Of a stretch of DNA of 64,000 nt, positions 2,189-8,196 are shown in pieces. The DNA lies in NCBI RefSeq assembly GCF_004762095.1, contig NZ_SIJH01000002.1, forward strand, positions 1 through 64,000, read 5' to 3'. A program made the position numbers and the translations under genes. The stretch is from Tabrizicola caldifontis. GTDB taxonomy: Bacteria > Pseudomonadota > Alphaproteobacteria > Rhodobacterales > Rhodobacteraceae. The notes under the pieces were generated by a model. That model had not been told where the DNA came from. It ran no database searches and saw only the letters and a list, made by a program, of their open reading frames with translations. Positions within the stretch are counted from its first letter, which is position 1; each line of letters opens with the position of its first letter.

Positions 2189-3015
2189 AGACCGTTTCGG
2201 AAAACCGCGCCTTCGGGGGGGTGCAGGGGGTCTATACCCATGCCTCCTCCGCCTGCGCCTGTGACATGACCTTCGGCCTTTTCCTGCCCGCGCAGGCCGA
2301 GGACGGGCCGGTGCCTTTGCTCTGGTTCCTCTCAGGCCTGACCTGCACGCATGAAAACGCCATGGTGAAGGCGGGCGCGCAACGCTGGGCGGCCGAGATG
2401 GGCATTGCGCTGGTCTTCCCCGACACCTCGCCGCGCGGCGAAGGGGTGGCGAACGAGCTGGACTTCGCCATGGGCCAGGGTGCGGGGTTCTATGTGAACG
2501 CCACGCAGAAGCCTTGGGCGCCCCACTTCCGCATGTGGGACTATGTGACCGAGGAACTGCCACGCCTTCTGTTCAACGCCTTCCCCCTGGCCGAGGAGGC
2601 GCAGGCGATCACCGGCCATTCCATGGGCGGCCACGGCGCACTGACCATCGCGATGAGCTTTCCGGGCCGGTTCAAGTCGGTCTCGGCCTTCGCCCCGATC
2701 TGCAACCCCACGACGAGCGACTGGGGACGCCCGCAATTTTCCGCCTATCTTGGGCCCGATGAATCGCTCTGGGCGGCGCATGATGCCAGTCTGCTGATGC
2801 GGCGGCGGGGCTTTGACGGGCCGATGCTGATCGACCAGGGCACGGCGGACCAGTTCCTGGACAAGCTGCGCCCCGAGGCTTTGGCAGAGGCGATGGCCGC
2901 TGTCCGCCAGGGGGGCACGTTCCGGATGCAGAAGGGCTATGACCACAGCTATTTCTTCGTCTCCAGCTTCATGGAAGACCATGTCGCATTCCATGCCGCG
3001 GCGCTGGCCGGCTAG
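2185..3015 (+). CDS. fghA: S-formylglutathione hydrolase
   Basis: Cytosolic esterase that hydrolyses S-formylglutathione to formate and glutathione, the last step of glutathione-dependent formaldehyde oxidation. The 276-residue length matches the family. The alpha/beta-hydrolase nucleophile motif GHSMGGHGAL is near residue 147, the acid is probably in IDQGTADQFL, and the histidine is in DHSYFF near the C-terminus. The family signatures SGLTCTHENA and DTSPRG are also visible. ATG 2185 follows a strong AAGGAGGG. The gene overlaps the AEC transporter at its start and the CAP-domain gene at its end. The usual partner, glutathione-dependent formaldehyde dehydrogenase, is not in this window. Confidence 0.93.
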   Translation: MKTVSENRAFGGVQGVYTHASSACACDMTFGLFLPAQAEDGPVPLLWFLSGLTCTHENAMVKAGAQRWAAEMGIALVFPDTSPRGEGVANELDFAMGQGAGFYVNATQKPWAPHFRMWDYVTEELPRLLFNAFPLAEEAQAITGHSMGGHGALTIAMSFPGRFKSVSAFAPICNPTTSDWGRPQFSAYLGPDESLWAAHDASLLMRRRGFDGPMLIDQGTADQFLDKLRPEALAEAMAAVRQGGTFRMQKGYDHSYFFVSSFMEDHVAFHAAALAG

Positions 3016-3484
3016 GGTGGCGGCTGTTGCGCTGGCCGTGGCGCTGGCAGCCCTGCCTGCGGCGGCTTCGGATGCGGCGCAGGGCGTGCTGGCGCAGGTC
3101 AATGCCCTGCGCGCAAAGACAGGATGCGCGCCGCTGAGCCTGAACCCGGCGCTGATGGCAGCGGCCAGAACCCATGCCCGCAACATGGCCGAGCAGAACT
3201 TCTTCGGGCATACCGGCAAGGACGGACGCGGCTTCGCGGCGCGGATCCGGGCACAGGGCTACAGCTACGGCCTCGCCGCCGAAAACATCGCCGCCGGCCA
3301 GCCGACGGTGGACCGAGCCGTGCAGGCCTGGCTGAAAAGCCCGGGCCACCGCCGCAACATGCTGAACTGCCGTTTCCGCGACACCGGCATCGCCATGGTC
3401 CATCAGCCCGACGATGCGCCCCTGCGCGGCCAGAGCCGCGGCCTGCGCTATTATTGGGTGCAGGTCTTCGGTTCGCCGCGATGA
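2993..3484 (+). CDS. Secreted CAP-domain (SCP/PR1-like) protein
   Basis: The N-terminus starting [12 protein letters not shown] is followed by an Ala/Leu/Val-rich stretch ending in AAASDA, a clear Sec signal peptide. The mature part is a CAP domain: [24 protein letters not shown] early on, then AENIAAG and GHRRNMLN, holding the cavity His and Glu residues of the family. The molecular role of bacterial CAP proteins is largely unknown; periplasmic or secreted location is inferred. An in-frame ATG at 2981 would add four residues. The start lies inside fghA and the stop overlaps the next start, so the three genes are coupled. Confidence 0.85.
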
Positions 3485-7920: not shown

Positions 7921-7969
7921 CCCCGCAGCGACCGGGACGGGGCCATTCCTGTCACGTTGACGAAAAGAG

Positions 7970-7998
7970 AAAGGGTTGCCCTGCGCAGGCAACCCTTT
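7970..7998. terminator. Hairpin terminator, probably bidirectional
   Basis: Perfect 11-bp stem AAAGGGTTGCC / GGCAACCCTTT with a 7-base loop, between the converging iolG (+) and yhhQ (-) transcripts. Only the minus-strand transcript is followed by a T-rich run (CTCTTTTCG), so it should terminate leftward transcription best. Confidence 0.75.
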
Positions 7999-8069
7999 CC
8001 GAGATCCAAGGAGATGGGCCAGTTAGGCATCCAAATCCAATCGTGGTGGTCATTTCCAAGGGGCTGCCC

Positions 8070-8126
8070 TCAGAAAATCATCCCTCCGACTGTCCCGACA
8101 CCTCTCTCCAATATCACTCTAGACAC
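8070..8126 (-). CDS. Possible 18-codon micro-ORF behind an extreme Shine-Dalgarno
   Basis: GTG at 8126 starts an 18-codon frame reading (V/M)SRVILERGVGTVGGMIF and ending in TGA at 8070-8072. Its only support is translational context: AAAGGAGGTGATCC lies immediately upstream, with GGAGG 7 nt from the GTG. There is no recognised family. It could be a leader peptide, a small protein, or an accidental frame inside a small RNA that lies between the yhhQ stop and the 7970-7998 terminator. Confidence 0.35.
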   Translation of the reverse strand: MSRVILERGVGTVGGMIF

Positions 8127-8142
8127 TGGATCACCTCCTTTC
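8126..8142 (-). promoter_or_regulatory. Ribosome-binding site fully complementary to the 16S rRNA 3' tail
   Basis: The minus strand reads GAAAGGAGGTGATCCAG. It is perfectly complementary over 17 nt to the universal bacterial 16S rRNA 3' end (CUGGAUCACCUCCUUUC). Typical Shine-Dalgarno pairing in this window is 4-7 nt. A TTGACA-like element (plus-strand TGTCAA at 8185-8190) lies upstream on the same strand, but no good -10 follows it. Confidence 0.6.
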
Positions 8143-8196
8143 AAATGGTTGCCGATGAGAGGAGCGTGCCACAGATTTTGTGTTTGTCAAAACAAA

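Follow-up and report, generated by a model that had tools for sequence, protein, structure and literature searches.

A conserved small RNA gene of the Rhodobacteraceae with a complement of nearly the whole 16S rRNA tail, a likely translated micro-ORF and a predicted Shine-Dalgarno lock

What could a complement of almost the entire 16S rRNA tail be doing in a short intergenic gap? The window analyzed here is a stretch of 64,000 nt from Tabrizicola caldifontis. The gap at 7921-8196 (276 bp) was correctly placed by a sequence-only reading of this DNA between two convergent genes; these are Vut_1 on the minus strand and GFO/IDH/MocA on the plus strand. The element that raises the question is the following:

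8126-8142, minus strand: 17-nt complement of the 16S rRNA tail, with an extended Shine-Dalgarno (SD) sequence

The proposed complement was confirmed by reading the letters from 8142 to 8126, GAAAGGAGGTGATCCAG, against the 3' terminus of the 16S rRNA (GGCTGGATCACCTCCTTTCT) of Gemmobacter aquarius and Cereibacter sphaeroides, two relatives from the Rhodobacterales. With these tails it forms 17 Watson-Crick pairs plus one G-U pair at the 18th base, and in both relatives it extends to one base short of the 16S end. A 16S rRNA search of genus genomes G000-G015, one with only 5 contigs, gave no match in any of the 16; as the organism's own 16S was not found in its genome, the tail complement rests on the 16S of relatives. 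In the 3.48-Mb genome the 16-mer occurs once at up to one mismatch, namely here (reversed control: none), and so does the exact 11-mer AAAGGAGGTGA. Within the window, a tolerance of three mismatches yielded 2 matches versus 0.14 expected by chance, the second one having 3 mismatches. When 46 long ORFs were picked mechanically from the window, their best complements at candidate starts measured 3-7 nt, so that the 4-7 nt given before as typical was a fair description.

The locus was further proposed to encode a short minus-strand RNA, and the following borders support this:

8162-8190, minus strand: likely promoter, TTGACA at 8190-8185, 17-nt spacer, ACGCTC at 8167-8162
7968-8000, minus strand: intrinsic terminator hairpin of 14 pairs with a T-rich tail

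From these we infer an RNA gene of about 190 nt, spanning roughly 8156-7966 on the minus strand, with the start expected near 8156. The TTGACA-like element suspected upstream is indeed present at 8190-8185, although ACGCTC makes a poor -10 box and the pair was not listed in a consensus scan. TTGAC was found upstream of the RNA in 30/30 aligned genus sequences and in 26 of 35 family sequences. Likewise, the terminator with its T-rich tail exists, but with 14 pairs instead of the 11 first counted. In A2, an alignment of 35 of the 61 loci of the Rhodobacteraceae type (6 of 30 from the genus, 29 of 31 from named genomes; L156 and L159 left out as repeats of genus genomes), 11 of 12 consensus terminator pairs change on both sides. 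Here, "Rhodobacteraceae type" refers to how the encoded peptide begins (MSxxxLE or one variant of it); neither length nor taxonomy entered the definition.

Conservation is confined to the RNA. Among 30 genus sequences, mean pairwise identity in 20-nt bins ran from 0.79 to 0.99 between TTGACA and the terminator. The upstream gene had 0.68-0.86 at its end; past the terminator, the values were 0.03-0.23 over 80 nt and 0.44-0.64 beyond. These sequences (alignment A1) are 30 of the 31 genus matches; L031 repeats L001. A 241-bp query had matched 31 of 32 genus genomes including its own, with 85-93% identity in the other 30. R1, a covariance model of the Rhodobacteraceae form, matched 180 of 198 family genomes, and our own genome once; 18 of the 198 gave no R1 match. 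Taken together, confined conservation, the upstream TTGAC, the covarying terminator and the 180 family genomes strongly support the proposed RNA gene, and that it is real and conserved is, in our view, near certain. A plasmid or phage origin was rejected, as the 241-bp query found no match in plasmid and phage collections.

The RNA might belong to a neighbouring gene, as the 3' end of the Vut_1 transcript or as a downstream leader, or be a stray 16S fragment or chance match. Indeed, in 60 of 61 loci of the Rhodobacteraceae type among the matches listed, less than 400 nt separate the RNA from the end of an upstream Vut_1 gene of the same orientation. It is near the RNA in none of 119 other loci among the matches listed, though; TTGAC is conserved between Vut_1 and the RNA, which has a terminator of its own, and the downstream genes (ORFs picked mechanically) vary in identity and strand. 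No neighbour was widely common across clades, the largest mixed cluster among the loci listed comprising 11 Rhodobacteraceae-type and 2 MSS loci. A conserved same-strand downstream gene, the mark of a leader-peptide attenuator, was not found, and a leader of a downstream gene was rejected for this reason. A stray 16S fragment or chance match was rejected in view of the class-wide spread and the covarying fold. We hence regard this whole group of explanations as highly improbable.

Within the RNA, the tail complement runs into a small reading frame:

8070-8126, minus strand: 18-codon micro-ORF with GTG start and TGA stop (MSRVILERGVGTVGGMIF), conserved in length

The 18-codon frame from the GTG at 8126 had been read correctly and ends with TGA at 8072-8070. 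Its length is exactly 18 codons in all 61 loci of the window's peptide type among the matches listed, 30 of which come from one genus, and these loci use TAA 30, TGA 17 and TAG 14 times. In 68 genera found by the model, among the matches listed, the ORF has exactly 18 codons in 60 and 17-22 codons in all 68, when a start shift of one or two bases is allowed in two genera (in L218, ATG lies two bases upstream and the ORF has 18 codons); the other two frames gave 18 codons in 0 of 136 cases. At the stop, the T was invariant in 59 sequences and the other two letters formed all three stop codons, while TGG occurred 0 times in 59 versus 10.1 expected (p 1.6e-5, without correction for kinship). In 42 genomes of the class, the start opened with G, A or T, never with C. 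From start and stop being kept, we consider it quite likely that the micro-ORF is translated, and a purely non-coding RNA was rejected on the same grounds.

Is then the 18-residue product itself the function, with a strong SD and the fold merely tuning its output? Conserved start and stop would agree with this, as do single-base variants that are synonymous in 21/21 cases at codon 2, 25/25 at codon 11 and 15/17 at codon 13, and a peptide core LE[RK]GVGT. Most other codons vary mainly non-synonymously, however. Values for codon positions 1/2/3 were 0.79/0.79/0.73 in codons 2-12 and 0.45/0.46/0.61 in codons 13-18, i.e., third positions are little freer than the others in the former and less free in the latter. 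Moreover, drift affects codons 16 and 17 as well as positions 1 and 2 of codon 18 (its last letter is fairly kept), related clades have unlike peptides (MSHCH..., MSYxKRCHLAGIAR, MSS...), and Brevundimonas, as judged by eye, keeps a CTGG motif out of frame. The codon-position pattern and the drifting peptides led us to reject an ordinary coding gene and render a micro-peptide gene rather unlikely. The previously suggested micro-peptide is supported, by comparison, at the level of translation, with start and stop kept. Selection appears to act on the start, the stop and the RNA, and possibly on part of the peptide.

For a common fold, RNAalifold predicted 45 pairs from the 35 A2 sequences, in the order P1, P2, a long-range helix P3, P4, a stop hairpin, a two-pair helix and the terminator. 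Twenty-two A2 pairs showed changes on both sides, compared with 11.2 in shuffles (none of 500 reached the observed value), and 94.7% of the cells were paired versus 39-58% in slid controls. The same structure imposed on 68 sequences of a second alignment, A3, gave 25 pairs changed on both sides (shuffles 17.0) and 94.1% paired cells; A3 was fitted to the model, and some of its genera may also be in A2. It covers 68 of the 180 family matches, composed of 28 of 30 retrieved loci and 40 of the 41 lowest matches listed; our own genome, a genus-mate and G367 are left out, and the matches covered are the strongest of their genomes, at about 103 bits or more. The predicted elements most relevant for initiation and termination are:

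8132-8138, minus strand: 5' strand of P1, the SD core GGAGGUG, pairing with 8016-8010
8010-8016, minus strand: 3' strand of P1, an internal anti-SD mimic CAUCUCC (in the family C[AG][CU]CUCC), 98.8% (A2) and 99.8% (A3) of cells paired
8107-8130, minus strand: P2, start-codon hairpin UCCAGUGU / AUAUUGGA, 98.2% (A2) and 93.4% (A3) of cells paired
8053-8076, minus strand: stop hairpin, whose 5' arm contains the stop codon and whose loop is CAGC, changed on both sides in A2 and A3 and present in the fold of the window's own sequence

The two segments of P1 are about 115 nt apart. Variation in P1 is one-sided and consists nearly entirely of transitions, almost always to a G-U-compatible letter; one-sided variation would be expected if the 5' strand must also fit the 16S, and for that reason covariation cannot prove P1. 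P1 and P2 have their 5' strands within and beside the 17-mer, and their 3' strands (UUGGA, CACCUCC or like) resemble, by eye, the 16S tail in matching order. Inner pairs of the stop hairpin were paired in 94.3% (A2) and 90.1% (A3) of cells, the outer ones in about 71%.

Single-sequence folds of 35 loci, a set that differs from A2 (4 genus, 31 named), gave unpaired probabilities of 0.00-0.02 for GGAGGU (0.12 for the next G), 0.04-0.11 for the start codon and 0.27-0.69 for the GAAA before it. The fold of the window's own RNA depends on its 5' end: P1 has a probability of at least 0.995 when the RNA starts at 8160 or later and of 0.22 from 8165, where the SD often prefers to pair with CUCCU of the 5' end. 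These folds make it likely that the SD is hidden in Rhodobacteraceae. A predicted internal anti-SD lock is found at least in Rhodobacteraceae and in Bradyrhizobium, where, with another ORF, GAGGUG and the start codon are hidden in a local hairpin by UCACCUC and its neighbours within the ORF (10/10). Elsewhere the SD is partly hidden, GGAGGUG being unpaired with 0.24-0.48 in 68 MSH loci and 0.20-0.61 in 23 MSS loci, and RNAalifold, applied to 63 of the 69 loci of MSH type, gave no common fold of the ORF region. In related clades, the lock would differ or is less clear-cut. As a separate observation, Bradyrhizobium loci such as L083 have in the ORF a CUCGCUGG that is perfectly complementary to a downstream CCAGCGAG (10/10), so that the anti-SD segment could pair in two alternative ways, much like in an attenuator; when single sequences are folded, the SD lock is preferred to the pairing with CCAGCGAG.

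The 17-mer itself was kept in 30/30 aligned genus sequences. Conservation of 17-mer and hairpin in close relatives, the lack of which would have spoken against the sequence-only reading, holds within the genus, but in the family the exact 16-mer is present in only 32 of 68 genera among the matches listed. Seventeen genera have an A-to-G change with which G-U pairing is still possible, and some keep only the 5' 11 nt of the complement; AAAGGAGGTG occurs in 68/68 among the matches listed. These variants bear on another reading, namely that the RNA is a guide which pairs with the pre-16S tail and directs or checks maturation of the 16S 3' end. It would profit from a complement reaching to one base from the tail end, yet the 3' half of this complement is lost in some genera, and the start codon, stop codon and stop hairpin would not be expected to be kept. 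We consider such a guide extremely improbable.

How costly would it be for the ribosomal tail to gain access to its site? Opening the 17-mer was calculated for 35 loci to require 11.8 kcal/mol on average (6.0-18.5), and the tail duplex yields about -35.0 kcal/mol, i.e., a net of -23.2, favourable by 16.7-29.0 kcal/mol. Opening GGAGG alone requires 7.3 kcal/mol (3.2-12.1), and a bare GGAGG duplex of -8.7 kcal/mol pays for this in 29/35 loci; the duplex of the 11-nt complement yields 18.9 kcal/mol and pays in 35/35. All energies were computed without ribosome, magnesium and S1. As bare GGAGG pays in 29 of 35 loci, reaching the SD does not strictly require so long a complement. What it gives, according to these calculations, is a large surplus and reach through the start-codon hairpin.

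A strong net energy of about -23 kcal/mol after opening, and an RNA that is nearly universal in the family, might also fit a 30S sponge or an RNA for hibernation, which would act as a brake in the manner of 6S RNA and keep small subunits bound through their tail. Such an RNA would require an abundance close to that of ribosomes, though, and an ORF with conserved start and stop would be needless. Furthermore, the resting fold is predicted to conceal most of the 17-mer, which points to a site behind a gate and not to a freely accessible sponge. The ribosome sponge of the sequence-only reading is not supported, and we regard it as improbable.

Given the large surplus and the reach through the start hairpin, we offer as our main reading a 30S-gated switch, in which an internal mimic of the 16S tail keeps the RNA closed until the genuine tail opens it. 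This reading is tentative, and we assign it a probability of about 0.4. In the structured small RNA gene we see the form that a widespread alphaproteobacterial RNA, a relative of CC2171, takes in Rhodobacteraceae. In its resting fold, the SD core would pair with the anti-SD mimic and the start codon would lie in a hairpin, both being hidden, with the stop codon placed in a third hairpin. The tail of a free 30S subunit might take the partly open GAAA as a toehold and displace P1 and P2; initiation would follow, and the ribosome would travel to the stop hairpin. The long complement would allow the tail to open the SD and the start-codon hairpin together, with a large surplus, and switching would track the supply of free 30S subunits with a mature tail. 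In its open form, the RNA would expose the anti-SD mimic, which could pair with SDs on other mRNAs, and the life-time of the RNA may depend on whether its translation succeeds or fails. The broader version, a widespread sensor of free mature 30S that combines an SD with a 16S-tail mimic split into pieces and whose opening releases an anti-SD that acts on the translation of other mRNAs, goes further, and we think it unlikely. If true, this sensor would be a riboswitch with the small ribosomal subunit as its ligand.

Are there known RNAs to which this one belongs? When the window was searched with Rfam 15 at family cut-offs, only a tRNA elsewhere in the window reached one. At a permissive threshold there was one match, RF01867 (CC2171), with 33.3 bits, E 1.2e-5 and coverage of model positions 1-159 of 159. 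The similarity to the whole CC2171 model is thus significant, while the score lies below the gathering cut-off of 75 bits. Much of it comes from the 5' core and the terminator. By E <= 0.001, RF01867 matched 85 of 385 genomes in a sample of the class, among them 5/5 Rhodobacteraceae, and 13 of the 385 lay above the cut-off; of 14 control genomes one matched, Caulobacter vibrioides. Further pattern-bearing loci scored 28-91 bits against RF01867, with 7/20 above the cut-off in one set and 0/8 in another. The window shares with CC2171 the 5' core GAAAGGAGGUGAUCCAGUGUCU, the terminator at the 3' end and the whole-model match. It differs by its score, by an 18-codon ORF of another sequence and by the long-range SD:anti-SD helix, which is absent from the Rfam fold as shown.

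As for the 5' core, 16S pairing could in principle cause convergence. With at most one mismatch, the pattern GAAAGGAGGTGATCCAGTGTC was present in 34 of 277 genera of the class, corresponding to 42 of 385 genomes (control: 0). Among 26 one-mismatch matches, 13 changed the initial letter of the start codon, to A in 10 and to T in 3 cases but never to C; 8 deviated at the base before it, 2 at position 12 and 3 at position 1. None of the 26 mismatches fell into TGTC, a constraint that 16S pairing does not explain. The shared TGTC and the terminator speak for common descent with CC2171, and as judged from sequence comparison the window is a divergent relative of CC2171, not a member by Rfam's rule. 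An orphan Rfam entry would hence belong to a widespread alphaproteobacterial RNA of unusual design, combining a near full-length complement of the 16S tail with a micro-ORF whose start and stop are selected. As a whole, the sequence-only reading is partly supported, strongly for the RNA gene and by comparison for its translation; it missed the anti-SD mimic, the hairpins of start and stop codon and the tie to CC2171.

In the literature found, no function of CC2171 is stated in the available text. In open-access literature, as far as its text was available, RF01867/CC2171 turned up only in the paper on Rfam 15 (PMC11701678), which adds one covarying pair, and as MH_s33 of Mesorhizobium huakuii (PMC5596092). 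The available portions of PMC5082802, PMC4117421 and PMC3840354 do not make this RNA apparent; known sRNAs of Paracoccus denitrificans are described in PMC5107571, as far as its text was available. The open-access literature searched gave no description of the ORF, of the 16S complement or of a Rhodobacteraceae form; older or subscription papers could hold one. The RNA is small and related to RNAs of laboratory species such as Caulobacter, so that a possible RNA-based sensing of free ribosomes is directly testable. Caulobacter sRNAs are reportedly treated in Landt 2008.

A precedent for a translated regulatory sRNA is Pos19 of Rhodobacter sphaeroides (219 nt, Rho-independent terminator, translated small ORF; PMC5036791, from the available text). 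The same source, in its available part, gives Pos19 a 150-nt ORF and an RpoE promoter and reports it only for R. sphaeroides, and a full complement of the 16S tail is not apparent there. By this analogy our RNA might be a dual-function sRNA that regulates mRNAs in trans by pairing, probably via C[AG][CU]CUCC, with incidental translation and 30S binding that carries no signal. Its own terminator, the lack of a neighbour common across clades and the conserved anti-SD mimic in the 3' part are in line with this. Such an sRNA leaves the long 16S complement and the folded-away SD and start codon unexplained, however, and we judge it unlikely, though worth serious consideration. Complementary CCUCCC cores and G/A-rich partners are also known, from the available text of PMC12559287, for SisA-D (alpha-R8) and CrfA of Caulobacter, but there the two parts reside on different Hfq-associated RNAs, whereas here both are on one RNA. 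Similarly, extended SD motifs act in translation initiation of Staphylococcus aureus (PMC13009471, available text); they are a general mRNA property in that organism, in contrast to one dedicated small RNA gene with a nearly whole-tail complement.

A scan of named genomes gave at least 120 loci, three of them labelled as outside Pseudomonadota (L064, L119, L175). L064 and L119 stem from metagenome-assembled genomes labelled Gemmatimonadetes and Nitrospinota and have the element with short ORFs, which may reflect misbinned contigs or a wider spread. In L175, from a metagenome-assembled genome labelled Acidobacteriaceae, the 21-mer precedes an ORF of 104 codons, far longer than elsewhere, and is probably an unrelated strong SD. 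In L034 and in the Azospirillum loci L102, L128 and L137 the same extended SD with ATGTCTCATGG stands ahead of an ORF of 56-59 codons, whose start resembles, by eye, a secretion signal; this super-SD may also serve a small protein gene. In the window, an ARAGORN call of tRNA-Ala at 1474-1558 is without Rfam support and likely false. In L041, an alphaproteobacterial tmRNA gene (2723-3021) lies about 1.2 kb from the CC2171 copy of the same locus.
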